DNA of 35,359 nt from a virus. Every line of letters starts with the position of its first letter. The first letter of the stretch is position 1. The stretch is taken from positions 1 to 35,359 of the IMG/VR virus record IMGVR_UViG_3300003332_000009. One strand, written 5' to 3'. The translations under genes were made by a program, and so were the position numbers. Shown here piece by piece: positions 13,564 through 32,690 of this stretch. A model generated the notes under the pieces. That model had not been told where the DNA came from. It did no database searches and saw only the letters and a list, made by a program, of their open reading frames with translations.

Positions 13564-14053
13564 ATTTAAAATTCCGAAACAAAAGGAAATAATCATAGTT
13601 GACGGAATGCAGAGCCGTAGGTTCAATCGTTTACTGATCGATTTAAGCCAAAATCTTTGGAAAAAATCGTTTCCGCCTGCAGCTGGGGCGGTCGCCTACT
13701 ATACGGTAACGTCAAACCCGGCGATTGTGGCCACAATACTGGCAAGTGTTACACCGTATCAGAGGGACGATCAGACATGGCTTACGGACCTAAATATTTG
13801 TTACACAGTAGCCTCAGCAGCACGGACAACGGTTACAATGTCAATTTCAGAGCTAACATTTTTAGACACAGCCGGACTGTATCAGCCTGTCAACGGGTAT
13901 GCAATGGACGGGTCCGGGGCTTATGTACATAACTGTTATGCAGAGCAAGACACTGGAAATATAATACTAAATCATGCAAGCGCAACCACAACAATATACG
14001 GCTTCAGAGCTAATGGACTCATTCTCAAATCAAAACCAGATTTCGCAGAGTGA
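13544..14053 (+). CDS. Virion protein in the tail-needle position, shares a C-terminal domain with the tailspike
   Basis: 169 residues from ATG 13544 (overlapping the previous gene by 20 bases); GTG 13553 is an alternative. In P22 this slot holds the tail needle gp26, but no long trimeric coiled coil is visible. Residues about 75-169 (WLTDLNICYTVASAARTTVT onward, ending LKSKPDFAE) align by eye with the last 95 residues of the tail protein at 18736 (WRINGCISYAVASASRNSAT, ending LNKKPTFHK). The shared domain looks like a small beta-sandwich. It may be a plug, a short fibre or a receptor-binding module. Confidence 0.65.
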   Translation: MYPVEPKFKIPKQKEIIIVDGMQSRRFNRLLIDLSQNLWKKSFPPAAGAVAYYTVTSNPAIVATILASVTPYQRDDQTWLTDLNICYTVASAARTTVTMSISELTFLDTAGLYQPVNGYAMDGSGAYVHNCYAEQDTGNIILNHASATTTIYGFRANGLILKSKPDFAE

Positions 14054-14510
14054 GTTTATAACCGAGTATAGAAAGCAGCTGTTAAAGCTACAGGAAGCTC
14101 TTAAAAAAGAAGAACAATGGCCAATGCCATTAGTCCATGAGTTTGCTCCCGGTGTCTATATGCGGTCTATATATATGCACAAGGGGTGCTTTGTGATAGG
14201 CAAGACGCACAAAACCGAACATTTTAATATTATCCATACCGGAAAGGCGACGCTTATGATCGACGGGAAAGTGCAGGAAGTATCAGCGCCGTATATGTTT
14301 GTAAGCGGAAAGAATATTAAAAAAGTCCTGGAAATCAAAGAAGACATGGTTTGGAGTACGGTCCATAGTGTTGACGACAGTAAGTTGATTTTAAACGAGG
14401 ACGGCAGCGTTAATATAGACGCGACAGTTGACTATTTGGAGCCGTTGGTTGTCTGTAGTGATTCCGAAGAGCTCGAATTGATCGAAACTGAATTACAGGG
14501 GTTGTTATGA
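14013..14510 (+). CDS. Cupin-fold protein in the virion cluster
   Basis: 165 residues if started at ATG 14013 (178 from ATG 13974, which lies further inside the previous gene). A helix (FITEYRKQLLKLQEALKKEE) precedes a cupin core: KTHKTEHFNIIHTGKATLMI with two His positions, then VSAPYMFVSGKNIKKVLEIK and WSTVHSVDD. Cupins of this sort recur in podovirus structural clusters, role unclear. It occupies the position of P22 gp14. It may bind metal or a sugar; not enough residues are diagnostic to call an enzyme. Confidence 0.7.
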   Translation: MDSFSNQNQISQSEFITEYRKQLLKLQEALKKEEQWPMPLVHEFAPGVYMRSIYMHKGCFVIGKTHKTEHFNIIHTGKATLMIDGKVQEVSAPYMFVSGKNIKKVLEIKEDMVWSTVHSVDDSKLILNEDGSVNIDATVDYLEPLVVCSDSEELELIETELQGLL

Positions 14511-15208
14511 GTTGGGGAGCGGTAGCGGTAGGTGCGGGAACGGCTGTCTTGGGATATATGGGTCAACAAGACGCAGCAAGTTCGCAGGCTGCAGCAAACA
14601 GGGCTGGACTATCAGCGGATAAGGCAACCAGAGCGGCAGAGATTAAAAAATGGGAGCAGGAACAGGGAATAGGTGCTGAACAGGCGCAATCAATGCGGGA
14701 TTATTCCAGCGAGCAGTTGGGAACATGGGGCGACGCAGGGGCGCAGGCATCACAGCAACAACAAGCCATGCTAGGTTTACAGGGTGCGGAGGCACAACAG
14801 GCCGCATACGGAGCTATTCAGGAAAGTCCGGGTCAGAAATTTATACGGGACAGGCAGCAAAAAGCGTTACTACGCGGGTCCGCTGCAATCGGTGGACTTG
14901 GCGGCGGAACAGTCAGAACAGCATTACAGGAACAGGCTGCAGGCTTCGCGAGTCAGGATATTGACAAACAATTGGGCCGATTACAAGCGCTCTCCGGTCA
15001 AGGTATGCAGGCCAGGGGTCAGATGGTTGGAAAAGATGTTGGAATCAGCGAAACCGGTGCCGGGCTGATGGGAGCTAGAGCAGAAAAAGAAGCAGCAGCA
15101 GCAGCAGAGGCGAAACGGCGAAGAGAATCAAAAGAGGCGCAGGCTTACGCACGAGAGCAACGTAAGGAAATTCAGGACCGATACAGCGCTGTAAACCCAA
15201 ACCTTTAG
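14507..15208 (+). CDS. DNA ejection protein, P22 gp7-like
   Basis: 233 residues (P22 gp7 is 229). The hydrophobic Gly/Ala-rich N-terminus (GAVAVGAGTAVLGYMGQQDA) is followed by Ala/Gln-rich helices (QASQQQQAMLGLQGAEAQQA) and a GLGGGTVRTALQEQAAGFAS segment that is conserved in such pilot proteins. The C-terminus is highly charged (EAKRRRESKEAQAYAREQRK). It is packed in the capsid and expelled ahead of DNA to help cross the envelope. First of three consecutive ejection genes. Confidence 0.82.
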   Translation: MSWGAVAVGAGTAVLGYMGQQDAASSQAAANRAGLSADKATRAAEIKKWEQEQGIGAEQAQSMRDYSSEQLGTWGDAGAQASQQQQAMLGLQGAEAQQAAYGAIQESPGQKFIRDRQQKALLRGSAAIGGLGGGTVRTALQEQAAGFASQDIDKQLGRLQALSGQGMQARGQMVGKDVGISETGAGLMGARAEKEAAAAAEAKRRRESKEAQAYAREQRKEIQDRYSAVNPNL

Positions 15209-15220
15209 AGCAGGACTAAC

Positions 15221-16483
15221 ATGACATTTTACCCACAAGCGGTACAACAACCGAGTATGTACAAAGCCTTAATGCAGGGCTTACAGGGATATCAGGCTGT
15301 TAAGGGTATCCAGCAACAATCAGCTGCAAGCGAACGTGCAGACGCCGCGGAAAAAAGAGCAGCGCTTGGCCAGACAGCTGCAACCGAGAGGCAGCAAAAA
15401 TATGATGATATCGCAGACAAGGAGAGATTTGCAAAAGAGTCATCTCAGTTTGCGGCTACTATTCGGGGGTTACCGACCGAAAAGAAAATCCAACGTATAC
15501 AGGAAAGAATCTCTGATTTAGATGGAAGAGGTATCCCGTCAGATACAACCAAACGACTGCTTGATATGTACCAGCAGGGAACCACAGGCGTCCAGCAGGC
15601 CAGGAGCATGGAAGAGGCTGAAATGTTGGGTGCAAAGGTTAAAGAGGCTGATGACGCGATCGAACAGCGTTACCAGATGGGTATCCAGCAGGGATATGTC
15701 AAGGCGCCGGCAAAAATCAAGGGTCAGTACAGGTTCGCGACACCCGAGGAAAAACAGCAGGCAGGAATCACCGACGATGCGCCTTACCAGGTATCTCCAA
15801 AAGGCCAGTTTGTAAAACTCGGTGGAAAGGGACAGACGATTAATGTTAATACGGGCGGGGCAGAACCCTATAAAATAGTGGACCCTAAATCAGGGTATGC
15901 AGTTGTAGAGAGGGACGGAAAACCCGAATATATAAAAATAAAAGGTGGCCCGGCAGAGCAAGCCGCACAAGAAAAAATTACAAAGGAAAAAGCACAAAAA
16001 AAGACAACAGCCAGAACCGCCAATATTGTCAAAGAAGATATTGGAAAATTAACAAGTATGCTAGAGGGGGAAAAATTCTACGATCCTATCACAGGAATAT
16101 CAGGGAGCTTAGCCGAATCAATACCAGGAACGTCTGCAGTTGACGCTGAAGCACTCAGGACCACAATCGGCGCCAATATAGGTTTCGACAGGTTGCAAGC
16201 CATGAGGGAGGCGTCAAAAACCGGTGGAGCATTGGGCGCAATATCAGAACGAGAAATGAAGCAGCTTGAATCTGTTATGGGGTCACTTGGCAAAAAGCAG
16301 AGCAAAGAGCAACAACTACGGAACCTGAAACGGCTGGATAAGATATACGGTGGTATTATAGAAAAGGCAAGTGCCTACCCCGGTGCTAGCCAATTCGGTT
16401 TTGGAGTACAAGCAATCCCTGTTATGCAGGTTCAAACACCTTCGCGAGAAATGACACCAGCACAAGCTGAAAGGTACAGATAA
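15221..16483 (+). CDS. DNA ejection protein, P22 gp20-like position
   Basis: 420 residues (P22 gp20 is 471). Long Gln/Ala/Arg-rich helices (SAASERADAAEKRAALGQTA) start the protein. A conserved block near residues 324-358 reads IGFDRLQAMREASKTGGALG and then SEREMKQLESVMGSL, which I recognise from podovirus internal/ejection proteins. A short linker with QTINVNTGGAEPYKIVDPKS lies in between. Placement as second of three ejection genes supports the role: part of the periplasm-spanning conduit for DNA entry. Confidence 0.8.
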   Translation: MTFYPQAVQQPSMYKALMQGLQGYQAVKGIQQQSAASERADAAEKRAALGQTAATERQQKYDDIADKERFAKESSQFAATIRGLPTEKKIQRIQERISDLDGRGIPSDTTKRLLDMYQQGTTGVQQARSMEEAEMLGAKVKEADDAIEQRYQMGIQQGYVKAPAKIKGQYRFATPEEKQQAGITDDAPYQVSPKGQFVKLGGKGQTINVNTGGAEPYKIVDPKSGYAVVERDGKPEYIKIKGGPAEQAAQEKITKEKAQKKTTARTANIVKEDIGKLTSMLEGEKFYDPITGISGSLAESIPGTSAVDAEALRTTIGANIGFDRLQAMREASKTGGALGAISEREMKQLESVMGSLGKKQSKEQQLRNLKRLDKIYGGIIEKASAYPGASQFGFGVQAIPVMQVQTPSREMTPAQAERYR

Positions 16484-18735
16484 TGGCTGAATGGCAAAAT
16501 CAATTATATCAGAATTATATATCTGGTAAAATGTCAGATCAGGGCCGATCTAATTACGAGGCTGATGTGATAGCCGGAGTGATTAAGGCGCCTGAAGGAA
16601 GCCAAGGCCCGTGGGCGGAAGCTGCAAAACCATATATCCAAGCCGGCATGCAGCAGGCTGCAACGGTGCCACAGCCGCCAAAACAAACAGAAGGTATCCC
16701 ACAGGCGCACGAAGAAGAAACACAGCCTGTTATTGTCCCTGACGAAGTCCTGCAAAGGTTTTGGAATGGTGAAATGTCAGACGAAGGTATGAAAAAACTT
16801 GGCGATGATTTTAGGGCCGGTCGGGTAATATCAGCAGAATCAGAAGACGTGCCTATTTTTGAGAAAATCAGAGAGACAATCTCCGGCACGGGGAAGCGTG
16901 TTCCAGAAACTGAAGCCTTACCGTCATGGGTTCGTATGCCTGAAATGAACAATCTTAGTATTAAAGGGGCCAAAACATTAATTGGAACAATGGCAGCCGG
17001 GCCGGATGAAGTATCAAGGGTAATCAAAAAACAGAATCCGGATGTTGAGGTCAAGCAGGATACAAAAGGCAATTATATCTTTACTTCCGGTATGGACGGG
17101 CAGCAATACGCAATAAAACCGGGGTTTAGAGCTGAAGAGGACTTGCTGAGGGGTGGTGCTACTTTAATGCTTTACGCCATGGGGTCACGTGGAGGGGCTG
17201 GCCGTAGAATGTTAGGGGCCGGTGCTACACAATTTGGAATAGAAGCATCTCAGGAAATGACCGGCGGAAAGTTTGATGCAACAGAAATTCCACTTGCTAT
17301 GCTGTTTGAAGGTGGAGGGATTGCAGCCGGAAAAGGAGCAGCAGCGTTAAAGGGCGTATTTAAGGGGAAAACAGCGCCGGAACCCGTTAGAAAAGCCATG
17401 GGGAAATTCGGTGTAAAATTAAAAAAGTCCATACCAACACAAATAGAAGCTGATGTTGCAACTGCTGAAAAAATGGGCGTAACGCCAATAACTTCAGATG
17501 TGTTCCCTCCCAAGACTTTCAGCCAAAAATCAAGGCAGCTGGCAACAGAAAGAATCCCTATAATCGGCACTGGAACAACCAGGGCAGCGCAACAGGAGAC
17601 AAGAGAACAGGCAGTCAAAGACGTTCTGGCAAGTTATGGTGCTGACGATTTGGCGGCCGCTTCTGATGATGTGATGAAGGATTTAATAAAAAAGAAGGGT
17701 GCCGATATCCAGAAATACACAAAATTGAAGGGTGACGTTATTGAGAATTTGTCCGGGGAAAGTGTCCCAATGGCCAAAACAGCAACAGCAATAGACGCCG
17801 AAGTGTCAAAACTTAAAGAGCTTGGATCAAAAGATGTTGAGCCACTGATCGAGGCACTGGAAGAGGCCAAAACTTCATTTGACGGCAAATCACTTTCACA
17901 AGTTGAAGACCTCCGTAAAATTCTAGGTGAAAAATTGAAATCATCTGACCTTGCAACCGTGAAAAGTCAGGCCGAAAAAGTGAACCGGAGTTTATATAAG
18001 GCTGTCAACGAAGACATGGGAGAGTTTATCAAGGCAAACGGTGAGCCTAGAGACTTCAATAAGTGGAAATTAGCAAATAAACGGCTTGAGGGTGGAATCA
18101 AAAGTATGAAAATAACAGCGCTTAAAACAGCGCTTAAAAAAGGGGATATGACTCCAGAACTTGTCCAGAATCTACTTTTTAGCAATAAACCAAGTGAAAT
18201 AAAAATGTTGTACAAGAGTCTTACCCCTGTCGGGAAATCAAGGGCAAAAGTGGCTATATATCAAAAGGCTCTAGAAAAAGCGGGTGGGATGGACGAACTG
18301 TCAACAGCAAAATTTAGAACGGCGCTGAAGAACCTGGAAAAATCAACCGGGGTATTTTTTAAAAATGATGATAAACGGGTACTTGACGGGTTGAAAAAAG
18401 TTTTGGACATGACAAAACGTGCAGAGGTGGCAGGCGTACAACCTCCAACAGGTGTGCAAAATTACCAGTTTATATTGGGGTCTATGCTTGGAGCCGGCAC
18501 ATATGCGGGAGGTGCTATAGTACCAGTAGCGTCAGGTTCGATAGCAGCGGTGGCCAGAGCTTACGAATCAAAACCTATCAGAAATCTTTTGATCAAAATA
18601 GCCAAGGGTAAAGGTGGCGAAGAGAAGTATATTAAAAGCCTTGTGAACCTTATCAGAACTCAGCACCAGCTCAGTAAAAAACAATCGCCGGCAGAACAGC
18701 GCCGGGCCTTAGAAATGCTAAATACAAAGGTATAA
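16483..18735 (+). CDS. Large DNA ejection protein, P22 gp16-like position
   Basis: 750 residues, longer than P22 gp16 (609). The N-terminus has two copies of a short motif: WQNQLYQNYISGKMSDQGRS (5-24) and LQRFWNGEMSDEGMKKLGDD (near 89-108), likely cargo or capsid-binding. A Gly/Ala-rich hydrophobic region (FEGGGIAAGKGAAALKGVFK) could insert in the membrane; the centre and C-terminus are long amphipathic helices. Another hydrophobic Gly stretch (FILGSMLGAGTYAGGAIVPV) lies near 660-690. The ATG shares one base with the previous stop codon. No lysozyme or transglycosylase motif is evident. Confidence 0.8.
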   Translation: MAEWQNQLYQNYISGKMSDQGRSNYEADVIAGVIKAPEGSQGPWAEAAKPYIQAGMQQAATVPQPPKQTEGIPQAHEEETQPVIVPDEVLQRFWNGEMSDEGMKKLGDDFRAGRVISAESEDVPIFEKIRETISGTGKRVPETEALPSWVRMPEMNNLSIKGAKTLIGTMAAGPDEVSRVIKKQNPDVEVKQDTKGNYIFTSGMDGQQYAIKPGFRAEEDLLRGGATLMLYAMGSRGGAGRRMLGAGATQFGIEASQEMTGGKFDATEIPLAMLFEGGGIAAGKGAAALKGVFKGKTAPEPVRKAMGKFGVKLKKSIPTQIEADVATAEKMGVTPITSDVFPPKTFSQKSRQLATERIPIIGTGTTRAAQQETREQAVKDVLASYGADDLAAASDDVMKDLIKKKGADIQKYTKLKGDVIENLSGESVPMAKTATAIDAEVSKLKELGSKDVEPLIEALEEAKTSFDGKSLSQVEDLRKILGEKLKSSDLATVKSQAEKVNRSLYKAVNEDMGEFIKANGEPRDFNKWKLANKRLEGGIKSMKITALKTALKKGDMTPELVQNLLFSNKPSEIKMLYKSLTPVGKSRAKVAIYQKALEKAGGMDELSTAKFRTALKNLEKSTGVFFKNDDKRVLDGLKKVLDMTKRAEVAGVQPPTGVQNYQFILGSMLGAGTYAGGAIVPVASGSIAAVARAYESKPIRNLLIKIAKGKGGEEKYIKSLVNLIRTQHQLSKKQSPAEQRRALEMLNTKV

Positions 18736-20163
18736 ATGTCAATCATCTATCTACCGATCCAGAGCGCATACGGTCAGAACATAAAACCTTTCGGCGGGGC
18801 GTTACTCTATGTCTACGAAACCGGAACAACGACGCTAAAAACGGTTTATTCCGACAAGGCCGAAACGACTCCGCTTTCAAACCCGGTGGTCGCAAACGGA
18901 GAAGGAAGGTTCCCGGCAATGTATATCAGCGGGCTTTACAAGCTGGTGTGCAAGGACGAAAATGACGTTACAATCTGGACAGAAGATAACCTTCAGGGCC
19001 GGACGGGTGATCTGGTATGGGGTGGTGATTTCAGCAGCTCGACCAATGCCAGTAATTACCCGGCGTCAGGTAATCAAGGCGATTGGTATGTTGTGACCAC
19101 AGGCTTCACTCTTGCTACTTTATCAGGTGGATACGTCCTAAATGAAAGGGATTTTATCATTGCAAATAAAGACGGAGCAACCGGAATAGATGCTGATTGG
19201 GATATTGTCAGGGGTAAGAATTCAGTCCCCAAAGATGCAGATTTCTCTACAAAAAATTTATTGATAGACGTACAGTCAAATACAACGGTTGATCTGGATG
19301 CTGATGTAATCAATATTCTGAACTCTGACAACGAAGTAAAACAGGTTACTGATGTTGATTTAACTTTTACAATGCCAACAGACCTGCACGCAGGCAGCGA
19401 AAAAGCGTCTACAAACTATTGGTTATGGATTGATAGCGATTTAAACAAGGTTTTAGTCCCGGATTTAACGGGAACGGCAGACGGGACAACGGCAGGATTC
19501 CTTGAAGACTCAGGCAATACCTTTTTTACGGATGGTGTCAAAGCCGGGGATATCGCTTACAACACAAAGGATTTAACGCAAACCACAGTCAAAACAACGC
19601 CTACGGTTGACGGGGCAAACCTGGAAGTCAACGACGATATTTTTACGGATACAGAAACGTATCTTATCAGGTTACTATCGCCAACAGGATTGGGATCGTT
19701 TAAAGCTAGACTAGGAGCTGCTTATAATAACAGTTCAAGCCATTTTGATGACTCGTTTTATACTCAGATTCAGGAAAAAAAATCGTATGATGAAAATAAT
19801 CTAGCTATTTCATCAAGCCCAGCTATAGCGTCGAATAGGGGCGTTGAGGCTTTTGTGAGGCAAGTCAACGACTGGACCGGGGCTGGTTCGTGGAGAATAA
19901 ACGGATGTATAAGTTACGCGGTCGCGTCAGCGTCCAGAAACTCGGCAACGTTGACTATATCCGGAATAGTAAATAAAGCGGGGACTGCTGCAAATTACGA
20001 TCCAGTAATTATAGCAGAGGGTAACTCCGGTGTCGGCCCGTATAGAGGCAACGCGGTTTCTAGCACAGCTACATTCGTATGTAGCCACGGACCATTAACA
20101 ACCACCGCCTATTTTTTCTCGTTTGATGTTCCGCTTAATAAAAAACCAACATTTCACAAATAA
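18736..20163 (+). CDS. Tailspike / tail fibre protein
   Basis: 475 residues. The N-terminal domain (1-90) contains FGGALLYVYETGTTTLKTVY, then SNPVVANGEGRFPAMYISG and YKLVCKDENDVTIWTEDNL, the classic head-binding/anchor pattern of podovirus tail proteins. The middle is beta-rich with Gly and Asp. The last 95 residues repeat the domain found at the end of the 13544 product. No beta-helix endoglycosidase core or catalytic acid pair is evident, and the length is short for a P22 spike (667), so a receptor-binding fibre is more likely. Begins directly after the ejection gene stop. Confidence 0.85.
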   Translation: MSIIYLPIQSAYGQNIKPFGGALLYVYETGTTTLKTVYSDKAETTPLSNPVVANGEGRFPAMYISGLYKLVCKDENDVTIWTEDNLQGRTGDLVWGGDFSSSTNASNYPASGNQGDWYVVTTGFTLATLSGGYVLNERDFIIANKDGATGIDADWDIVRGKNSVPKDADFSTKNLLIDVQSNTTVDLDADVINILNSDNEVKQVTDVDLTFTMPTDLHAGSEKASTNYWLWIDSDLNKVLVPDLTGTADGTTAGFLEDSGNTFFTDGVKAGDIAYNTKDLTQTTVKTTPTVDGANLEVNDDIFTDTETYLIRLLSPTGLGSFKARLGAAYNNSSSHFDDSFYTQIQEKKSYDENNLAISSSPAIASNRGVEAFVRQVNDWTGAGSWRINGCISYAVASASRNSATLTISGIVNKAGTAANYDPVIIAEGNSGVGPYRGNAVSSTATFVCSHGPLTTTAYFFSFDVPLNKKPTFHK

Positions 20164-20166
20164 AAA

Positions 20167-20538
20167 ATGAAATTCAAACACGCAGAATCACCCGGCTACT
20201 ATTATAAAATAGACGACGCCGGAAATAAAAGCCCGTCATGGTCTCAAAAAAACAAGCCGGGATATTATCAAGAAATGATGGATTGGGTTGCTGAGGGCAA
20301 CGAAATAGAACCACAATTCACAGCCGAAGAGCTTGACCAGAAAATTGCCGACGATATCAAGCAGGCGCATGAAAAACAAAAATCCGATTGTATCCGGCTC
20401 CTGAACGAATCAGAAAAAGCGGTTTCTCATGATCCACCCTACCCGGATGATATCGATGCCTGGAAAAAGTATCGGGCTGAACTCAGGTTATTGCTAAAGT
20501 CTAAAGAGCTCGGCGACATTCCAAAAAAACCTTTTTGA
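20167..20538 (+). CDS. Tail fibre assembly-like protein
   Basis: 123 residues. N-terminal MKFKHAESPGYYYKIDDAGN is followed by a helical middle (EELDQKIADDIKQAHEKQKS). The C-terminus WKKYRAELRLLLKS, with GDIPKKPF, matches the W-x-x-YR-x-x-LR ... IP-x-x-P signature of tail-fibre assembly chaperones. It starts three bases after the spike/fibre stop, the usual position for this chaperone. Its stop codon lies inside the -35 element of the next promoter. Confidence 0.8.
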   Translation: MKFKHAESPGYYYKIDDAGNKSPSWSQKNKPGYYQEMMDWVAEGNEIEPQFTAEELDQKIADDIKQAHEKQKSDCIRLLNESEKAVSHDPPYPDDIDAWKKYRAELRLLLKSKELGDIPKKPF

Positions 20539-20563
20539 CATTCCGGTTTACATTTTATATAAT
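20535..20563 (+). promoter_or_regulatory. Perfect consensus sigma-70 promoter for the lipoprotein gene
   Basis: TTGACA (20535-20540), 17-base spacer, TATAAT (20558-20563): both hexamers and the spacer are consensus. The stop codon of the upstream gene is the TGA inside the -35. An AT-rich leader and an AGAGGA ribosome site lead to ATG 20600. It should fire with host polymerase and no phage factor, so the lipoprotein gene is likely expressed independently of the late operon. Confidence 0.85.
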
Positions 20564-20599
20564 AAATATAATTTATAAACCCAAACCAAAGAGGAAAAA

Positions 20600-21904
20600 A
20601 TGAAAAAGTATGTTTTGATGTTGCTGGCATTGTTTTTAATCGGATGTACAGAAGTTATCAAAGAAAGCAGTGATTCAGACACAACTGAAGATGCTCCAAT
20701 TGTCCACACAATTGCCGGTAAGCTACAAAAAGGCCGGTGCCTGAAGGATGCCAGAGTACAATCATGGCCATTGATCAACGGAACAATGAGCCAATCAGGT
20801 GCGCAATTTATCGAGTTTACCGGTGACGATGGGTCCTATAGTATGGACGTTCAAGGCGATTCTGAATACGTTTTTACGTACTTTAAAGGCTATTGTGACG
20901 ATGAAGTAAACGGTGGGTCAGGATGGCAGGAACTATACGGAATCAGAAAAGTATCAGACCCAATTTCAAACACGAATCCACTAACGAAAGTTTCTTATCA
21001 TGTGGCCAAGGACTTATTTGCTGACGGTTTTGGAACGGTCGAAGCCTGCCTGGCAGAATCTGAGAGGCTGACAACTGAGTTTATGTCAATGCCGAAAATT
21101 TCCGAGAGGTTCGGATCAATGAACCTTGAAAAAGACGGCGAGCAACACCGAGAACTTTCCCTTGCAAGTGCAGCTATTCTCTACGGTCGGACCGATGTTG
21201 AGGCCGGTGATTTCATGATTGAGATAGCAACCGCGATTATGAATGGCGACACGGCCTTAAAAGATGAAATTAGGGCAGTGTATGATGAATTGCCTCTGAT
21301 GACCGTAAAAAGCAATCTAGAGGCCAGCTATGCAAGCGTGGGAGTGGATATTGACGTTCCGAAACTATGGAGAATTCACGCGCCTGATTATTACGCTGAC
21401 TTATTGGAAAGAACCCCCGCTGTCCAAACAACCTACAATCTGGACGATACAACAAGCTGCAGTTTCGACCAGTCAGATTTTAATACTTTTGCGGTCCCGT
21501 ACACTTTCCAGGCGGGAATCGAATCAACGCGGTATATAGCCTTAAACGTTGCCAAAGATATTGACGTATCAATCTGGACGGTAGCGACTCATGTGGGTGG
21601 ATATCCAGCACCGGGAATTAAAATTCTGGACTTAACGAGGCTGAGGGAAAATCTACTTGCGGTTCCTGGCCTGTCATATAACGGCATGTTGGGTGATAAC
21701 CACGGGTTAAAAACAGGCGATGAGGTTTATATTGTATTTAGAAAAGACGCTGATTTCGTGCTGTCTAAATCATGCGGTGGTGACCGGCTTTACACAGCTT
21801 ACACACTGGCAAGCGATAACGAGGGTTTGACCTGGATAGGTGACGGTAACAACGCGGACCGGTTCTTTTATTTCACTGGGTTGATTTTAAAAGGGTTTAA
21901 CTGA
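20600..21904 (+). CDS. Lipoprotein, accessory (moron-like) gene
   Basis: 434 residues with a signal peptide MKKYVLMLLALFLIGC whose lipobox is L-I-G-C (Cys16). The mature start, TEVIKESSDSDTTEDAP, is a flexible acidic linker. Positions 2-3 after Cys are Glu-Val, not Asp, so outer-membrane sorting is possible. The early mature part looks like a small beta domain (IAGKLQKGRCLKDARVQSWP) of the carboxypeptidase-regulatory/surface type; the rest is unrecognised. It has its own consensus promoter and lies between tail and lysis genes, typical for genes altering the host surface. A role in superinfection exclusion is an inference. Confidence 0.8.
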   Translation: MKKYVLMLLALFLIGCTEVIKESSDSDTTEDAPIVHTIAGKLQKGRCLKDARVQSWPLINGTMSQSGAQFIEFTGDDGSYSMDVQGDSEYVFTYFKGYCDDEVNGGSGWQELYGIRKVSDPISNTNPLTKVSYHVAKDLFADGFGTVEACLAESERLTTEFMSMPKISERFGSMNLEKDGEQHRELSLASAAILYGRTDVEAGDFMIEIATAIMNGDTALKDEIRAVYDELPLMTVKSNLEASYASVGVDIDVPKLWRIHAPDYYADLLERTPAVQTTYNLDDTTSCSFDQSDFNTFAVPYTFQAGIESTRYIALNVAKDIDVSIWTVATHVGGYPAPGIKILDLTRLRENLLAVPGLSYNGMLGDNHGLKTGDEVYIVFRKDADFVLSKSCGGDRLYTAYTLASDNEGLTWIGDGNNADRFFYFTGLILKGFN

Positions 21905-22308
21905 TGCTGAAACTAGAACGTTCTTATCTGGATAACTGCACAATAGGCAAGATGTATTTTTCCGGTGAGTTTGTATGCTACACAGTCGAGCGCCCGTGGC
22001 TTAATAACGGGAAAAATATTAGCTGTGTACCTGCCGGGACGTATAAACTCGAACCGTATAGTTCCAGCAGGTTCCCGGACTGCTATTCACTGACGAGTTT
22101 TCCTCTCGGGGTCGGTCTTATCCCGAGTTTTCACCGGACCCATATTTTGATTCACCCAGGCAATTATCCACATGACGTGGAGGGTTGTATTGCACCGGGT
22201 CTCAGGCTTAATCAGTCAACATGGGGAGTCTCAGAGAGCAGGCCCGCAATGGATATGCTCAGAGGCTTAATCGAATTAAATAACATTCAAACATTGGAGA
22301 TTAAATAA
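21904..22308 (+). CDS. DUF5675-family protein, possible lysis enzyme
   Basis: 134 residues. The family pattern is clear: CTIGKMYFSGEFVCYTVERP, NISCVPAGTYKLEPY, and ILIHPGNYPHDVEGCIAPGL with His80, His84 and a GC(I) at 94-96. DUF5675 is widespread in phages near lysis genes; its activity is unknown, although the H...GC motif recalls L,D-transpeptidase-like sites. Here it sits between the lipoprotein and a holin-like gene, overlapping the former by one base, and no classical lysozyme exists elsewhere in the window. It is therefore the best endolysin candidate. Confidence 0.75.
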   Translation: MLKLERSYLDNCTIGKMYFSGEFVCYTVERPWLNNGKNISCVPAGTYKLEPYSSSRFPDCYSLTSFPLGVGLIPSFHRTHILIHPGNYPHDVEGCIAPGLRLNQSTWGVSESRPAMDMLRGLIELNNIQTLEIK

Positions 22309-22589
22309 TGGAAATCATAACAGCTTGGCTTATTCAATACGGGCTTATGGCAGCAGGCGGAACAATCGCGGCGGCTGTTTTGGGGTGGGTACTCGCTAAG
22401 ATTCCAACGGGAAAATGGTCAAAGCAGTCAGCTATCAAAGGGGCTGAACACGGTAAGATTGTAACCGCTTTTTGTTCCAAAAAAATCCCGCTATGGAATA
22501 ATGTAATTGAGCCAATATTCGTTGACACGGTTGGCGTTTTGCTTTCCTATATCAGCGGGTTTATTGTGGGCTTGAAGTCGGATAACTAA
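22308..22589 (+). CDS. Holin-like membrane protein
   Basis: 93 residues with two hydrophobic segments (about 8-30, AWLIQYGLMAAGGTIAAAVL, and 68-88, PIFVDTVGVLLSYISGFIVG) separated by a basic loop (KWSKQSAIKGAEHGK). Size, topology and place right after the DUF5675 gene suggest a holin or holin-like pore. TTGGAGATTAA provides the ribosome site. Its stop overlaps the stop of a convergent minus-strand gene by three bases. Not matched to a named holin family. Confidence 0.6.
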   Translation: MEIITAWLIQYGLMAAGGTIAAAVLGWVLAKIPTGKWSKQSAIKGAEHGKIVTAFCSKKIPLWNNVIEPIFVDTVGVLLSYISGFIVGLKSDN

Positions 22590-22869: not shown

Positions 22870-23328
22870 TCATTGTGTGTGTTTCGACATTTCTTTATCA
22901 ATTGCGCTCTGCATGATTACCTCAACCACTTCGCCGCGGTGCTTGTTTTTAAACTGGTCCATTTTGAATAATTCCACCCAAAGCTGCTTGTCGACCCTTA
23001 GTTGTATGGTTGTTAATTTGCCACAAGGCGAAAACCTTACTTTCTTTTTTCGCCGCCTCTTGTTGTTTGCTTGTTCTTTTATGGTTGCCCACCTACAATT
23101 TTTAGGGCAGTAATTCCCGTCATTGTTTATTCTGTCGATTGACAACCCTGGCGGCCTTTTTCCCATATCAAGTAAGAAAGTATCGAAGCTATCCCACCTT
23201 TCACAGATAGATATCCCCCTCCCTCCATAGTATTTGTAACCACTATTTTTTTTATTATTGCACCTTTGCCTCATATTAGCCCATGTTTTGTACTCACTTT
23301 TGTGTAGTTTGCGGTTTGTATTTTTCAT
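22870..23328 (-). CDS. HNH-like (homing-type) nuclease with ribbon-helix-helix-like tail
   Basis: 152 residues. Residues 10-90 carry the phage HNH/AP2-associated pattern: YKTWANMRQRC, YYGGRGISICERW (33-45), then SIDRINNDGNYCPKNCRWAT (63-82) and EQANN. Such proteins nick DNA and can spread by homing. The C-terminal part (106-145, TTIQLRVDKQLWVELFKMDQ ...) looks like a ribbon-helix-helix segment, similar to the protein encoded just upstream at 23325-23498. The ATG overlaps the upstream TGA (ATGA). It sits in the only minus-strand operon of the window. Confidence 0.75.
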   Translation of the reverse strand: MKNTNRKLHKSEYKTWANMRQRCNNKKNSGYKYYGGRGISICERWDSFDTFLLDMGKRPPGLSIDRINNDGNYCPKNCRWATIKEQANNKRRRKKKVRFSPCGKLTTIQLRVDKQLWVELFKMDQFKNKHRGEVVEVIMQSAIDKEMSKHTQ

Positions 23329-23526: not shown

Positions 23527-23555
23527 ATTATCGGTAAAGGTTTTTATTATGTCAA
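23527..23555 (-). promoter_or_regulatory. Leftward sigma-70 promoter
   Basis: Read on the minus strand: TTGACA (complement of 23550-23555), 17-base spacer, GATAAT (complement of 23527-23532). The -35 is consensus and the -10 has one mismatch. It drives the minus-strand operon whose first start codon is at 23498. Confidence 0.7.
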
Positions 23556-23566
23556 TAAAAAAAGTG

Positions 23567-23595
23567 TTGACAATAAAATAAATATAGTCCATCCT
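23567..23595 (+). promoter_or_regulatory. Rightward early promoter, divergent from the leftward one
   Basis: TTGACA at 23567-23572; 17 bases on lies CATCCT (23590-23595), a poor -10 that keeps the key A2 and T6. The -35 elements of the two promoters stand back to back 11 bases apart in an AT-rich stretch, so their regulation is probably linked. The first rightward gene starts at 23638 with TTGGAGGATT. Confidence 0.45.
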
Positions 23596-23637: not shown

Positions 23638-23928
23638 ATGAGCGAACACGGACCAAGTTTTGACGCAGCGCAACGCGCACACGATAACGCTGAACATCCC
23701 GACTATTGGGAGGATGACACGGAGCATGATGAGATGTTTGATTACATTCAAAGCGTCTACAGAAAGTCAGATCTGGTAGAAACCTGGACAATTACAATCA
23801 ATATAACCAAGCTGAACGCAACCGGCGTGTACCATATTGATCTTGGAGAATTTTCAGGTGCCGGTCAGAGCAAAACTGAGGCATTGATAGATTTATGTGA
23901 ACAAATTTTGGAGAATTCGAATGAGTGA
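23638..23928 (+). CDS. First gene of the early recombination operon, hypothetical
   Basis: 96 residues. The N-terminus MSEHGPSFDAAQRAHDNAEH is His/Asp/Glu-rich, then YWEDDTEHDEMFDYIQ. The C-terminal half is a beta-alpha unit (TWTITINITKLNATGVYHID; GQSKTEALIDLCEQILENS) typical of small phage early proteins. It has a strong GGAGG ribosome site and overlaps the ERF gene by eight bases. Function unknown. Confidence 0.7.
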   Translation: MSEHGPSFDAAQRAHDNAEHPDYWEDDTEHDEMFDYIQSVYRKSDLVETWTITINITKLNATGVYHIDLGEFSGAGQSKTEALIDLCEQILENSNE

Positions 23929-24634
23929 AAACGAAATCGTAGTAAAAGAAGATTCCAGCCCCATGACTCACGCCAGCGAGTTTTTGAAGTATGGCGGCAA
24001 AATGGAGGATCTGGAAAAGATGCTTGAGTTACAGGAACGGCACGATGCAAATGAGGCTAGGAAAGCGTTTCATGTAGCGATGGCTGATTTCAAGAAAAAT
24101 CCGCCTGAGATTTTGAAGTCGAAGAAAGTGAGCTACAAAACCAGCAGTGGCGAAGCTTCATATAATCACGCCGACTTGGGAGTGATAACAACGGCTATCG
24201 GTTCTTCTTTGGCTGAGCATGGTTTGAGTGCAAGCTGGAAGCAAGAGCAGGATGCAGGTATTAAGGTCACTTGCCGACTGACACATGAGTTAGGACACTT
24301 CGAAGAAACTTCCCTTTTTTCACCTCCTGACACGTCGGGTGGAAAGAATAGCATCCAGGCCATAGGATCAACGATCACTTATCTGCAACGGTATACCTTG
24401 CTCGCGTTGACCGGGCTTGCTGCACATGACCAGGATGATGACGGAGCTGGTGTAAATGATGATCTGGTTAATGAAATTGCGTCCCTGAAAACGGTTGAAG
24501 CCATTGAAAAATATTACAGGGATCACAGCAAGGATCACCCACAAATGAAAACTTTAATTGCCCTGCTTGTATCCAGGAAAGCGGGAATTGTCAAGGAAAA
24601 GTTAGAAGATGCCGCAGCGGTTAAGGGGGTGTGA
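23921..24634 (+). CDS. erf: ERF-family single-strand annealing protein
   Basis: 237 residues starting at ATG 23921, preferred because GGAG lies upstream and the family begins near MSENEIVV; an upstream ATG at 23897 is inside the previous gene. ERF-family landmarks: FKKNPPEILKSKKVSYKT, NHADLGVITTAIGSSLAEHG and the strongly conserved TYLQRYTLLALTGLAAHDQD-DDG. It anneals complementary strands, circularises or concatemerises phage DNA and works with the exonuclease encoded next. Start overlaps the previous stop. Confidence 0.93.
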   Translation: MSENEIVVKEDSSPMTHASEFLKYGGKMEDLEKMLELQERHDANEARKAFHVAMADFKKNPPEILKSKKVSYKTSSGEASYNHADLGVITTAIGSSLAEHGLSASWKQEQDAGIKVTCRLTHELGHFEETSLFSPPDTSGGKNSIQAIGSTITYLQRYTLLALTGLAAHDQDDDGAGVNDDLVNEIASLKTVEAIEKYYRDHSKDHPQMKTLIALLVSRKAGIVKEKLEDAAAVKGV

Positions 24635-25251
24635 TGGAAATTGTTAATGTCGAGCAGCTATCTCCTGAGTGGTGGAAGCTGAAAGAAAAACGGATGACTG
24701 CCAGCCATGCTCAGGCTATTGGCGCGAACGGTAAGGGGCTTGAGACTTACATAAACAAATTAATGCAAGAGTATTATAGCAATGCAGACCCGGAACATTT
24801 CAGCAACCATCATACCGAGAGAGGGACCGAATTGGAAGACTCCGCAGGGTTTGTATATCAGATGGAGACAGGTATGGAAGTTAGCAAAATCGGCTTCGTA
24901 ATCTATAATGATTATGTTGGTGCGTCACCTGATTTATTTGTGGGAGATGATGGTATGGCAGAAATAAAATGCTTAGCTGATAAGGGTTACTTTGACCTGC
25001 TCATGGGAGCAAAACCAGATACAAAATACATCTGGCAAGCCAATATGCAGCTTCTTGTATGCGAAAAAAAATGGAACGACCTTGTATTTTACAATCAAAA
25101 TTTCGATGAGCCATTAATTATTATCAGGGTTGAACCTGACCACGCGAAGTTTGAAAAACTGGAAGCCGGTTTTGAATCCGGGATTGTGATGATCCAAGAA
25201 ATTGAAAACAAGATGAACAAAATTTTATCAACCAAACAGGAGAAAATATGA
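24634..25251 (+). CDS. YqaJ / lambda-exonuclease family nuclease
   Basis: 205 residues from ATG 24634 (a GTG at 24631 is possible). Motifs: SPEWWKLKEKRMTASHA near the start, ERGTELEDSAGF (62-73), then catalytic D100 in GASPDLF and E110-x-K112 in MAEIKCL, and QANMQLLV (135-142). This is the PD-(D/E)XK set of the YqaJ recombinase family. It should resect double-strand ends to feed the ERF protein. TGATG overlap with erf. Confidence 0.92.
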   Translation: MEIVNVEQLSPEWWKLKEKRMTASHAQAIGANGKGLETYINKLMQEYYSNADPEHFSNHHTERGTELEDSAGFVYQMETGMEVSKIGFVIYNDYVGASPDLFVGDDGMAEIKCLADKGYFDLLMGAKPDTKYIWQANMQLLVCEKKWNDLVFYNQNFDEPLIIIRVEPDHAKFEKLEAGFESGIVMIQEIENKMNKILSTKQEKI

Positions 25252-26231
25252 GAAGAGAAGCAGCTGCACCTGAAACAGAATTAATCGTTATTGAAAATAT
25301 AAACGCTATTGAATTGTTTACCGGTGAAAAAGTGGACCCTTTACTTGAGGGTATTTCCGAAAAAGTGAAAGCGTTTGTCCCCGACCTTTCCACCGATACC
25401 AGCCGCAAGAAAATTGCATCTATAGCGCACCAAGTATCAAAGGCAAAAACCGGCCTTGATAAATTGGGTAAGGATTTGGTTGCCGATTGGAAAACCAAGG
25501 CTAAGGCTGTTGACGCATCCAGGAAACACATCCGGGACAGCCTGGATTATCTGAAAGCTGAAGTCCGTCAACCGCTGACGGAATGGGAAGAGGCCGAAAA
25601 ACAAAAGGAGGAAGAGGCCCGGCTACTCGCTGAATATTTGGCTGATTGGGATCAGGCTATTGCAGATGATGATTTGATCAACCGAGAGCGTGAAGTTGCC
25701 AGGAAAGAAGCTGAATTTGCCAAGCAAGAGGAGGAGCGTCGGCAGAAAGAAGAGGCCGACCGCATGGAAAAAGAGAGGATCGAGCGTGAAGAACGGCTGA
25801 AGAAAGAAGCTGCTGAAACCGCTAAACGGGAAGCGGAAGAGAAGGTGGCAAAGGCTAAAGCTGAAAAAGAAGAGTCTGAGCGCAAACTAAAAGAAGCGGA
25901 ACAGAAACGCAAAGATGATGCTCTCAAGGCTGAAATTGAACGTAAAAATGCAGCAGCAAGGGCAGAACTTGAACGGAAAGCGGCTATTCAAGAGGCCGAA
26001 CGCAAGGCCCAACAGGAAGCCGATAGAAAAGAAGCTGACCGGCTGGAAGCGGAACGTGTCGCAAAGGAAAAGGCAGATAGGAAAGCAGCTAACCTGAATC
26101 ATCAAGGCAAAATCAACCGAGAAGCTCTTGCTGATTTCGTAAAAATTGAAGGGGTTACTGAATCCCTTGGAAAAGATATACTCAGAGCGATTGCCAAGGG
26201 CGACATTTCCCATATTTCCATTAATTACTAA
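25248..26231 (+). CDS. Coiled-coil protein of the recombination operon
   Basis: 327 residues. A globular N-terminal region (LIVIENINAIELFTGEKVDP) and TSRKKIASIAHQVSKAKTGL precede a very long charged coiled coil (about 115-275; Glu, Lys, Arg and Ala heptads). A small C-terminal domain (NREALADFVKIEGVTESLGK) ends in ILRAIAKGDISHISINY. This layout resembles phage proteins beside ERF/RecT and YqaJ genes (some DUF1351-like). It may bridge recombination partners. Overlaps the exonuclease gene by four bases. Confidence 0.8.
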   Translation: MRREAAAPETELIVIENINAIELFTGEKVDPLLEGISEKVKAFVPDLSTDTSRKKIASIAHQVSKAKTGLDKLGKDLVADWKTKAKAVDASRKHIRDSLDYLKAEVRQPLTEWEEAEKQKEEEARLLAEYLADWDQAIADDDLINREREVARKEAEFAKQEEERRQKEEADRMEKERIEREERLKKEAAETAKREAEEKVAKAKAEKEESERKLKEAEQKRKDDALKAEIERKNAAARAELERKAAIQEAERKAQQEADRKEADRLEAERVAKEKADRKAANLNHQGKINREALADFVKIEGVTESLGKDILRAIAKGDISHISINY

Positions 26232-26668
26232 TGATTGAATTCACACACTCAGAAGATACAGAGGGCGTTATTTCAAGGTGTCAATCCCTGATAAACGAGT
26301 ACCAGAAAGATAATGACCTTCTGCCGGAACGATTGAAATATATCGAGAAGAAACTTGCCGGGTATTTTTCGTATCTAATCCGTAAAAAGGCACAATACCA
26401 AGCCCTACAAAACGCTCACTACTGGATTAGGAAAGTATCCCATTCAAGGGAATCAATTAAGGCAAGGGGTGCTGGTAACACTCAGGGGTTGTCTGACCAT
26501 ATCGCCAACACGAATATTGAACAGCAGATCAAAGATGAAACATTTGGGGTATGGCGCTATGAAGATTTAAACGGGTTTTGCCGGGCGCTGGAAAAGATTT
26601 TTATTTCTATCGCCCATCAGTTGAAGGATTATGAGAAGGAACGTATTAATTCAAGGAACCAGACATGA
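26231..26668 (+). CDS. Hypothetical early protein
   Basis: 145 residues. Helical throughout: RCQSLINEYQKDNDLLPERL, YFSYLIRKKAQYQALQNAHY, then LNGFCRALEKIFISIAHQLK. The ATG overlaps the stop of the coiled-coil gene, so it is part of the recombination operon. Possibly a recombination accessory factor by context; no known family recognised. Confidence 0.65.
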   Translation: MIEFTHSEDTEGVISRCQSLINEYQKDNDLLPERLKYIEKKLAGYFSYLIRKKAQYQALQNAHYWIRKVSHSRESIKARGAGNTQGLSDHIANTNIEQQIKDETFGVWRYEDLNGFCRALEKIFISIAHQLKDYEKERINSRNQT

Positions 26669-26994
26669 TTGAAAAACCCGGGCCACACAAGAAACCCAAG
26701 CGGCCAAGAATCAAGCCACCCGCTGAAAAGCATTGCCGGAGGTGCAATAGAACCACCGGAACAGAGGCATGGAGACACGCAGAAAGCCGGTTAATCAAGT
26801 TTGAACATGGCGGCGGTATAATGGGTGGAAAGCTGCCAGATGACCAAACTAGCTGGCTCTGTTTGGATTGCGACATGGAATTATCTCAACCTCTGCCGAA
26901 AGATGCAAGTCAGAAAGATTTGGAGTATCATAAAAAACAATGGCAGAAAGTTATAAAACTATCCCATAACGATGTACAGCACACCGAGGATTGA
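26665..26994 (+). CDS. Zinc-ribbon protein (CxxC...CxxC), early operon
   Basis: 109 residues. A basic Pro/Lys N-terminus (KPGPHKKPKRPRIKPP) leads to HCRRCNRTTGTEAWRHAESR, then GGGIMGGKLPDDQTSWLC and LDCDMELSQPLPKDA. The two Cys pairs and the His positions suggest a zinc-binding fold like NinG/HNH-type recombination proteins, but no complete HNH is visible. Its place after erf and yqaJ genes fits a DNA-processing role. Start overlaps the preceding stop. Confidence 0.65.
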   Translation: MIEKPGPHKKPKRPRIKPPAEKHCRRCNRTTGTEAWRHAESRLIKFEHGGGIMGGKLPDDQTSWLCLDCDMELSQPLPKDASQKDLEYHKKQWQKVIKLSHNDVQHTED

Positions 26995-27071
26995 TTTTCT
27001 CGCAAAACAGGTACTCAGGTATCAAATAAGAAAGAAAATGGATTTAAACACGCTTAAACAAGGGAAAAACA

Positions 27072-27287
27072 ATGGTATTAATATACAGAAAATCACAACA
27101 CCGAATGATCCAGCCATCTGACATCGCCACAGGCCGTAAGTCTAAGCATAAATTTAATCCAACAAGTGAGTATATTGCAGAGGCTACGAAAGAATTTTTG
27201 CGGGATGGAGGTCGGATAACCAAGCTTGCCCATGAAGAACCTAGTAGATATTATGAAAACATTTTTGATTTGGATGACGATGTTTAG
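27072..27287 (+). CDS. Small protein with YIxEAxxxFLxxGGxI motif
   Basis: 71 residues from ATG 27072 (AAGGG upstream). The key region is PTSEYIAEATKEFLRDGGRI, then TKLAHEEPSRYYENIFDLDD. A similar pattern (YIDEAVEQYLNYGGKI) occurs in the 34668 product, so these are short phage proteins of one type; the helix-turn-GG-strand unit is common in early phage genes. Function not known. Ends by overlapping the ATG of the next gene. Confidence 0.65.
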   Translation: MVLIYRKSQHRMIQPSDIATGRKSKHKFNPTSEYIAEATKEFLRDGGRITKLAHEEPSRYYENIFDLDDDV

Positions 27288-27429
27288 CCAATCGGAAATA
27301 GAGTTATTAAAATCGGTTAAAGAGATATTCCCCGAATCGGAACTAATTATCTACTATGCAACGCCTGAACAGGTCGAGCAGCTTAAAAAAGATGGCTTGT
27401 CCGGGATATCAAGGAGACAGAGGAAATGA
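27280..27429 (+). CDS. Small hypothetical protein
   Basis: 49 residues from ATG 27280 (MFSQSEIELLKSVKEIFPES), which overlaps the previous TAG; upstream in-frame ATGs lie inside the preceding gene. The rest reads ELIIYYATPEQVEQLKKDG and a basic tail. A single alpha/beta unit. The stop overlaps the methyltransferase start. Confidence 0.55.
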   Translation: MFSQSEIELLKSVKEIFPESELIIYYATPEQVEQLKKDGLSGISRRQRK

Positions 27430-28316
27430 ACGTACTAAGCCTATTCGACGGCATGGCCTGTGGTCTTGTCGCACTGAAACGAGCCGGAATTCCGGTAACG
27501 AATTACTACGCATCTGAAATTGACAAGTACGCTATTCAGATTGCGAAAAAGAATCATCCAGAGATTATCGAGTTGGGATCAATTGAGAATTACGAGTCAT
27601 GGGATTTACCAAAGATAGACATAATAATTGGTGGCAGTCCATGCCAGGGATACAGTTTTGCAGGAAAAAAACTCAATTTTGGTGATCCACGGTCAGCGTT
27701 GTTTTTTAAGTTTGTTGAGTGTTTATGGAAATTCAAGCCTGACCATTTTTTGATGGAAAATACACGCATGGACAAGGGTATCCAAGACGCAATAAGCGAA
27801 CTATTAGAAGTCGAACCATTCGAAATCAACTCTTCGTTAGTCAGCGCACAAGATAGAAAAAGAATATATTGGACAAATTTACCAGGGCCCCAACTTCCAG
27901 ATAATAAAAATATACAATTAAAAGATATACTTGAGCCAATTCAAGAATCTTGCAATTTAGGAATCAGAGCAAAATCAAAATGTTTGCGTGTCGGTGGATT
28001 AAAAAGCCCATTTTATTCAAAACAAGAATGGGACAGCCCGTTTATTAAAACAGATAAAAATCTCAAAGAAAAATACAATCAATATAAATCATGCTGTTTA
28101 ACTGGCGGCGCTCATTCTGGCGGTAATCATTCACAAATGGATTTGATTTTATTTAAAAATATGGAATGCCGGCGATATACACCAATCGAATGCGAACGAC
28201 TCCAAACACTACCAGACAATTACACTGAAGGCGTCAGCAACCCCCAGCGGTACAAGATGATAGGCAATGGCTGGACTGTTGACGTTATCGCGCATATATT
28301 GCAGGGGATAAAATGA
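27426..28316 (+). CDS. C5-cytosine DNA methyltransferase
   Basis: 296 residues. Motif I FDGMACG (7-13), motif IV GGSPCQGYSFAG (69-80; catalytic Cys73), motif VI as ENT (111-113, instead of the usual ENV), motif VIII QDRKRIYW (142-149), motif IX RRYTPIECERLQTLP (249-263) and motif X GNGWTV (280-285). The short target-recognition region (about 180-245) has Cys and Gly clusters. No restriction partner is nearby, so it is a solitary enzyme that probably protects phage DNA from host restriction or marks it for replication/packaging control. Overlaps both neighbours. Confidence 0.92.
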   Translation: MNVLSLFDGMACGLVALKRAGIPVTNYYASEIDKYAIQIAKKNHPEIIELGSIENYESWDLPKIDIIIGGSPCQGYSFAGKKLNFGDPRSALFFKFVECLWKFKPDHFLMENTRMDKGIQDAISELLEVEPFEINSSLVSAQDRKRIYWTNLPGPQLPDNKNIQLKDILEPIQESCNLGIRAKSKCLRVGGLKSPFYSKQEWDSPFIKTDKNLKEKYNQYKSCCLTGGAHSGGNHSQMDLILFKNMECRRYTPIECERLQTLPDNYTEGVSNPQRYKMIGNGWTVDVIAHILQGIK

Positions 28317-28531
28317 TACACAACCACGATTTCAGCAACGCCGGGAAAATCGAGAAAATGAAAAACCAGTGGGGTGACGCAAGAATATCTCCGTACCGGT
28401 TTTATATCGAGTTTTACAGCAAGTATTCATTGCATGGGTATTCTAAGTTTTTGGAAATGATCAACTACCAGGAGAGGTACAGCCCGGAGCTGGATAGGGC
28501 GGTGAAGGATTTTCAAAAAGTTTATTTTTAG
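28313..28531 (+). CDS. Small hypothetical protein after the methyltransferase
   Basis: 72 residues, MIHNHDFSNAGKIEKMKNQW, RISPYRFYIEFYSKYSLHGY and a short helix. Rich in Tyr, Phe and Lys. The ATG overlaps the methyltransferase stop. No family recognised; a partner of the methyltransferase is possible by coupling only. Confidence 0.55.
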   Translation: MIHNHDFSNAGKIEKMKNQWGDARISPYRFYIEFYSKYSLHGYSKFLEMINYQERYSPELDRAVKDFQKVYF

Positions 28532-28534
28532 GGG

Positions 28535-28564
28535 TTGACAACCGTTTTTTTTGTGTTGTAAAGT
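28535..28564 (+). promoter_or_regulatory. Promoter of the replication block
   Basis: TTGACA (28535-28540), 18-base T-rich spacer, TAAAGT (28559-28564). It begins three bases after the preceding stop. Transcription would start near 28571, so a product beginning at ATG 28574 would be almost leaderless, which favours the downstream ATG 28610 for the XRE-type gene. Confidence 0.65.
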
Positions 28565-28609
28565 AGTTAAAAGATGTTAAAATTATTTAATAGAATCAAA
28601 TGGTATCAT

Positions 28610-28819
28610 ATGAGAATAACAATAGAAACAGCCCAATCCGGGATTGCTGAGTTTAGGCAAAAAAACGGGTACACCCTGGATAAACTTTCAGAAAAAACCG
28701 GTGTTGCAAAATCTACATTGATAAAAATCGAGGCTGGAAGTGTAAAGCCACAGGCGACAACCGTCTATAAACTTAACCAGCACATTAAAACGGTTGAGCC
28801 ATGCACAGAGGCTATGTAA
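28610..28819 (+). CDS. XRE-type HTH regulator (Cro-like size)
   Basis: 69 residues from ATG 28610 (81 from ATG 28574). The HTH spans IAEFRQKNGYTLDKLSEKTG, then VAKSTLIKIEAGSVKPQATT, the XRE/Cro signature with the IExGxxxPxxxT tail. Being only one domain long, it could act as Cro or as a regulator of the replication operon and its promoter at 28535. No larger CI-like repressor was found in the window. The gene end overlaps the replication initiator start by 19 bases. Confidence 0.75.
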   Translation: MRITIETAQSGIAEFRQKNGYTLDKLSEKTGVAKSTLIKIEAGSVKPQATTVYKLNQHIKTVEPCTEAM

Positions 28820-31294: not shown

Positions 31295-31830
31295 AAGAAA
31301 TAAAAATAAAACGGTGTAATTGTGAGTCACTAACAACTGATTACACTTTAAAGAAAAGAGTCACCGCAAACGGAACAATACAATACGCGGCCCAGTGCAA
31401 TGTGTGCGGCAGACAGGTATCCGAAAACATAGGTCATAAGTTATTAACAGATTCAGAAAAGAAAAATGCCGAGGCGTATGATAGCACTATTGCCACAAGA
31501 TATTGGAAAAAGTACGGCGCGGAAAGAACAGAAAAGAATAAACAGAAATTCGATTTAGAAAAACAAAAATACTATAAATATTTGGAATCAGCCGAATGGA
31601 AAGAAAAAAGTAGGTTGACACTTAAAAGAGACGGGTATACTTGCCAGATGTGTGGTGTAATGGCGTCACAAGCGCACCATCTAACATACGCCAGAATTTA
31701 CAACGAGCGCCAAGAAGATTTAATTTCAGTTTGCCAATGTTGCCACAACTTAATCCATGATAACGATATGAGAAGCCAAACGCTAATTTGGCCGGAAGTC
31801 AGGCCGGTTACGTTTAGAGATAAAACATGA
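31291..31830 (+). CDS. HNH endonuclease
   Basis: 179 residues. N-terminal Cys-rich ribbon (CNCESL; CNVCGR at 36-41). HNH domain at 98-157: YLESAEWKEKSRLTLKRDGY, CQMCG (118-122), AHHLTYARIYNE with H129/H130 and N139, and VCQCCHNLIH (C148, C151, H152, H156). It nicks or cuts DNA; it could be a homing endonuclease or act in packaging/recombination. It overlaps the primase-helicase stop. N-terminal extension with its own Cys pairs is slightly unusual. Confidence 0.85.
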   Translation: MKEIKIKRCNCESLTTDYTLKKRVTANGTIQYAAQCNVCGRQVSENIGHKLLTDSEKKNAEAYDSTIATRYWKKYGAERTEKNKQKFDLEKQKYYKYLESAEWKEKSRLTLKRDGYTCQMCGVMASQAHHLTYARIYNERQEDLISVCQCCHNLIHDNDMRSQTLIWPEVRPVTFRDKT

Positions 31831-31994: not shown

Positions 31995-31995
31995 A

Positions 31996-32181: not shown

Positions 32182-32227
32182 GGTGACTAAACCAAGCCGC
32201 GTGCCGGTTTAATTAAAAAGGGGAAAA

Positions 32228-32383: not shown

Positions 32384-32418
32384 CCGGTTTTAATGTAAAC
32401 TTAATGTAGGAAACTAAA

Positions 32419-32675: not shown

Positions 32676-32690
32676 CTCAAGGAGAGAACA

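Follow-up and report, generated by a model that had tools for sequence, protein, structure and literature searches.

The window, as we call the whole 35,359-nucleotide stretch of viral DNA analyzed here, holds a gene for a 434-residue lipoprotein (20600–21904, + strand) between its tail genes and its probable lysis genes, and a perfect consensus promoter stands in front of this gene. What would a phage do with such a lipoprotein, and would it be made apart from the late genes around it? An earlier note on this DNA had read the arrangement as that of an independently expressed gene that modifies the host envelope, for example to exclude other phages. Our preferred reading is close to this and we give it a probability of about 40%: an accessory envelope gene, kept beside the host-recognition genes, encodes a lipoprotein that would mask or jam the phage's receptor and exclude related phages.

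The promoter upstream of the lipoprotein gene

The sigma-70 consensus TTGACA-17-TATAAT is found at 20535–20563 on the + strand, with the −35 box at 20535–20540, a spacer of 17 nt and the −10 box at 20558–20563, and transcription would be expected to start near 20570. The −35 box contains the TGA (20536–20538) that ends the preceding fibre-assembly-like gene, just as the earlier note had described. A search of all 35,359 bases on both strands returned this one exact match, where shuffles gave an expectation of 0.07, and a 67-nt leader as AT-rich as this one would contain a 12/12 match by chance with a probability of about 3e-5, so the perfect promoter that had been claimed is both unique in the window and improbable even locally. 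With an approximate textbook sigma-70 matrix it scored 15.65 bits and the runner-up site in the window 12.29. The promoter lies at the correct distance and in the correct orientation relative to the lipoprotein gene, which has a Shine-Dalgarno motif (AGAGG, 20590–20594, +), and the 61-nt gap before the gene (77% AT) is the sole long gap within 13563–22589. Shine-Dalgarno motifs were seen upstream of 23 of the 43 genes, against a background of 18%; this suggests that a sigma-70 consensus has meaning in the host, and it argues against Bacteroidota.

An imperfect palindrome of 37 bp, GGTTTACATTTTATAT-AATAA-ATATAATTTATAAACC (20545–20581), spans the −10 box and +1, and was considered as an operator; with a shuffle p of 0.03 to 0.08 it is too weak for such a claim. 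Elsewhere in the window a possible control region (23527–23573) separates an HNH gene from the Erf module; it has an inverted repeat TGTCAA...TTGACA and two promoter-like sites on the minus strand that overlap each other.

Genes around the promoter

Upstream of the promoter lie the tail fibre gene (18736–20163, +) and the fibre-assembly-like gene (20167–20538, +). The latter matched phrog_4912 weakly (E 0.053) and is 46% identical to its counterpart at 8408–8803 of L050, a partial contig (15-kb locus) from a related phage, which itself matched phrog_4912 at 6.6e-5. Downstream, the lipoprotein ORF ends in TGATG and a DUF5675 gene, a probable endolysin-slot gene, starts on its last base (21904–22308, +; 1-nt overlap with the lipoprotein stop). 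The last base of the DUF5675 gene is in turn the first of a hydrophobic ORF of 93 aa (22308–22589, +), assigned as holin-like by appearance alone. Because of these 1-nt overlaps, and since no clear terminator was seen between the three ORFs, the promoter probably serves the lipoprotein, DUF5675 and holin-like genes together. The lipoprotein gene can thus be kept as a gene served by the promoter, as first proposed, while its place as the sole gene served is doubtful.

In the Mu-like vibriophages martha 12B12 and ZX4290 the gene behind the late activator is DUF5675, in the slot where Mu keeps its endolysin. From this position, and from its occurrence in a microvirus (L073) as well, DUF5675 may be an uncatalogued endolysin; its H-x-G-N...G-C-I motif may resemble that of L,D-transpeptidases. 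Among 74 loci there was one other perfect promoter, TTGACA-16-TATAAT in Vibrio phage 1.226.O (L074, 3197–3224), and the genes behind it run on to DUF5675 and a TM protein.

The lipoprotein and its bacterial module

ORF 20600–21904 does encode a 434-residue lipoprotein, as had been reported. Its signal peptide MKKYVLMLLALFLIG with the lipobox LIGC (20600–20647, +) predicts cleavage between MKKYVLMLLALFLIG and C, and lipidation is expected at Cys16. This is followed on the same strand by a flexible acidic tether (residues 17–35, 20648–20704; pLDDT <50 for residues 1–30), a bacterial surface-lipoprotein module (residues 36–259, 20705–21376) with a beta sandwich (35–117) and a helical part (127–245), and a phage-specific C-terminal region (residues 260–434, 21377–21901) whose fold is not reliably predicted. 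No family match to the protein was found in Pfam, PHROGs, NCBIfam or PADLOC, and Pfam gave nothing up to E 10, the Ltp domain included. Direct searches of viral contigs (with short peptides), phages, plasmids and genome contigs found no relative, only one chance plasmid match. Matches to L-lysine oxidase (E 0.00045, 76 residues) had no other support and were set aside.

The motifs QKGPF, GYYFNE and LTHL point to bacterial lipoproteins, and a consensus written from these motifs found actual members in Desulfosudis and Bacteroidales. The bacterial family was accepted only once a profile made from real sequences scored the phage proteins far above decoys. With this bacterial-only profile (43 domains, no phage sequences) the window protein obtained 63.3 bits (E 1.2e-18, residues 37–257) and the L050 copy 33.0 bits, compared with 8.0 for the best decoy. 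This was further supported by hhalign, where the bacterial alignment matched the two phage proteins at E 9.8e-14 over 223 columns. The absence of a recognised family, which the earlier note had pointed out, therefore holds for the four databases but not for the protein as a whole, two thirds of which belong to an uncatalogued bacterial lipoprotein family. Both the lipobox and this homology speak for an envelope role.

A query that included the two phage rows found the module family in 35 of 393 Bacteroidales-order genomes and in 5 of 389 genomes of a Desulfobacterota class. The bacterial members, which carry QKGPF, GYYFNE and N-x-N-x-LTHL, have the same order of parts as the phage protein, with a lipidated Cys, a short tether and then the module; a lipobox-like start is present in most, and many are 390–440 aa long, the size of the phage protein. 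They differ in that identity across the module is about 22% and their C-terminal parts are unlike the phage C-terminal region: comparison of phage residues 260–434 with the C-terminal parts of the 390–440 aa members gave no blastp match below E 2 and an hhalign probability of 0.1%. The parts behind the module also vary among the bacterial relatives, judged by eye to be LamG-like in L055 and SusD-like in L057 and L075, and this variation behind one module points to a general display platform. The SusD-like fusion in L075 (4920–7082) lies on an IMG/VR contig whose flanking DNA looks bacterial.

Predicted fold

We made structure predictions of the module, and a model from seven sequences reached a pLDDT of about 80–95 across most of residues 31–250, while a model from two sequences was discarded (pLDDT 40). 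The best structural match was the non-haem domain of PgcA (9i0d and 9i0e; VIA-align Z 12.3 and 10.9), with the next unrelated row at 5.2. The alignment at Z 12.3 covers 163 residues at 3.7 A, and Foldseek gave E 1.2e-4. Residues 36–232 are therefore predicted to share the fold of this domain; a 26-sequence profile search up to E 10 did not retrieve 9i0d or 9i0e. PgcA, a cytochrome of Geobacter sulfurreducens, is lipid-anchored and exported outside the cell, and its non-haem domain is the first after the anchor (PMC11520253). The phage module would likewise sit behind a lipid anchor; PgcA differs in that it carries haem domains. What the two have in common is a platform behind the lipid anchor, and a role of this platform in surface export is a guess. 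Foldseek rows for the CorA transporter, which is not the same as the phage Cor protein, were noise (TM 0.1, rmsd near 20), and weak structural rows in the C-terminal region (Z below 5) are without meaning.

The homologue in a related phage

L050 was reached by a search with gp16. Its proteins are close to those of the window (Hc3 71%, gp16 64–66% and fibre 51% identity), and immediately behind the assembly gene it encodes, in the opposite orientation, a 443-aa lipoprotein that is 30% identical to the window protein (E 5e-41). The lipobox is kept in both phage copies, as LTGC in L050, where a collagen-like GPIGPMGPKGD tether (10286–10170, −) comes right behind the lipidated Cys. Between the two phage copies residues 260–434 are 36% identical vs 25% in the N-terminal module, and this better conservation suggests that the C-terminal region carries a phage-specific function.

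Upstream of the L050 lipoprotein gene we found an extended −10, TGATATAAT, that ends 26 nt before the ATG. The site is short and has no good −35, and on both strands of the 15-kb locus 0.63 sites of the TGATATAAT type are expected and two were found. The gene has kept its neighbour while its strand has changed, as is expected of a self-contained unit. Independent expression, as had been proposed, is thus supported by the perfect promoter in the window together with an opposite-strand homologue that has a promoter-like −10 of its own. The early genes of L050 are oriented toward its tail genes, which makes the early module (L050 8955–14889, window 23638–33602) inverted relative to the late genes, with tail proteins 50–70% identical. 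The gp16-like protein of L050 (4341–6968) has 875 aa, about 125 more than the 750 aa of the window's, apparently through an internal insertion.

Other relatives with a comparable region had no such lipoprotein gene, which makes it an accessory gene. No homologue was present in the 18 records searched among P22-like relatives collected via TerL (47 loci), and when viral contigs were scanned twice for patterns of the C-terminal motifs, the L050 contig was the one true relative.

Phage genome and lifestyle

The window is an IMG/VR virus record and carries the genes of a P22-like podovirus, with terminase, portal (phrog_156), major head protein (phrog_283), Hc3 (phrog_578) and a gp16-like DNA-transfer protein (phrog_770). 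One pentapeptide-repeat gene is cut by the window ends (34841–35359 and 1–625), which share an exact 91-bp overlap within it, so the genome looks circularly complete, the alternative being an overlap driven by the repeats. With PHROGs, the ORFs scanned gave no integrase, CI-type repressor or partition gene. Since the genome looks complete and is without integrase or repressor, expression from a prophage is unsupported, and the carrier cells in which the earlier note would have looked for transcripts are not borne out. Two HNH endonuclease genes (22870–23328, −, and 33704–34411, +) belong to the same families (phrog_374 and phrog_3377) and are probably mobile insertions.

Proposed role and alternatives

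Superinfection exclusion is favored because the gene resembles those of the receptor-blocking lipoproteins Llp and Cor in its position, in the predicted lipidation of its product and in its apparent independence, and because it lies, as they do in T5 and T1, in a phage without lysogeny genes. In this mechanism, host sigma-70 RNA polymerase would read the lipoprotein gene from its own promoter, outside the late programme, and the product would leave the cytoplasm, receive its lipid at Cys16 and reach the outer membrane. Residues 36–259, judged by profile and predicted fold, would provide a ready-made bacterial surface-lipoprotein platform for display of the phage-specific C-terminal domain, in which the two known phage copies are more alike than in the platform. 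By analogy, the phage's own receptor would then be masked or jammed soon after infection, so that related phages are excluded from the infected cell, and released progeny would be kept from sticking to debris, as with Llp of T5 and Cor of T1. The analysis shows the promoter sequence, the lipobox, the homology, the synteny and the resemblance in fold; transcription, lipidation, location and exclusion are steps that we infer. A point against exclusion is that strong, early constitutive expression fits poorly with a promoter that points into a probable lysis cassette.

This point leads to the strongest rival, which we nevertheless consider unlikely: the promoter would be that of the lysis cassette, whose first gene product, the lipoprotein, would be made late or at lysis and help to disrupt or loosen the envelope. 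The 1-nt overlaps of the lipoprotein, DUF5675 and holin-like ORFs without a clear terminator between them would fit, as would the position of DUF5675 behind the late activator of Mu-like vibriophages, which is that of Mu's endolysin, and the one further perfect promoter seen across the 74 loci, which also precedes a run to DUF5675. In L050, however, the lipoprotein gene has no lysis genes behind it and the partial contig gave no DUF5675, and the size and bacterial platform domain of the lipoprotein are unlike those of spanins. Ranked behind this, and likewise unlikely, is a general host-surface modifier, such as an adhesin or a protein for binding or uptake, from which the infected or carrier cell would profit and which would not exclude phages. 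The varied C-terminal parts of the bacterial relatives, with the module as a general display platform, agree with such a role, but a long-lived carrier state is not evident, the apparently complete genome having no lysogeny or maintenance genes, and the gene adjoins the fibre genes.

Least probable of these, and in our view improbable, is that the promoter-like sequence is accidental or inactive and not used on its own, the lipoprotein being made by late read-through only. A consensus match is no evidence of function, the 61-nt gap is 77% AT and one perfect match occurred in 7% of whole-window shuffles; against this, chance within the leader is about 3e-5, and the site has the correct distance and orientation in the sole long gap of the tail-to-lysis run. 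Returning to superinfection exclusion, a fuller version is more tentative than exclusion as such, though we hold it likelier than any of the rivals: the phage would have recruited the bacterial PgcA-like QKGPF/LTHL module in order to place a domain of its own making on the outside of infected cells, expressed from a separate promoter that the host reads, and the product would be a large receptor mask of two domains with no relation to Cor, Llp or Ltp. If the exclusion reading is true, it would give a first testable role to a common, unnamed Bacteroidales lipoprotein module with a fold counterpart in Geobacter PgcA.

Comparison with Llp, Cor and Ltp

In T5 the Llp gene sits next to the receptor-binding gene, on its downstream side, and the protein, an early product, jams FhuA from within the periplasm (PMC9586334). 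Cor is encoded directly 3' of the tail-fibre cluster in T1, HK022, N15, ES18 and phi80 (PMC13164509), and virulent phages that use porins as receptors typically have such a protein (PMC11990801). The window protein resembles Llp and Cor as a phage-encoded lipoprotein with a lipobox whose gene lies directly downstream of receptor-binding or fibre genes, here in the order fibre, assembly gene, lipoprotein, and the L050 copy shares this position with the same fibre and assembly neighbours. Like T5 and T1, the window phage is without a lysogeny module, and expression separate from the late structural run, as we read it from the promoter, would be a further likeness. No sequence relation of the window lipoprotein to Cor or Llp was detected, with no PHROG match, and for the L050 homologue (P0002) the match to Cor (phrog_1119) was confined to the signal peptide (E 0.26).

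Ltp of the Streptococcus thermophilus phage TP-J34 is also a phage lipoprotein acquired as a moron, but it has 142 aa and is encoded in the lysogeny module of a temperate phage, whereas the window phage is without such a module and its lipoprotein has no family match to Ltp. With 434 aa the window protein is about five times larger than Cor or Llp, and unlike these small proteins it is built in two parts, with a bacterial platform domain. The receptor-blocking lipoproteins known from phages are for the most part small coliphage proteins, and a large, module-built one would, if true, extend this kind and offer a sequence by which others could be found.
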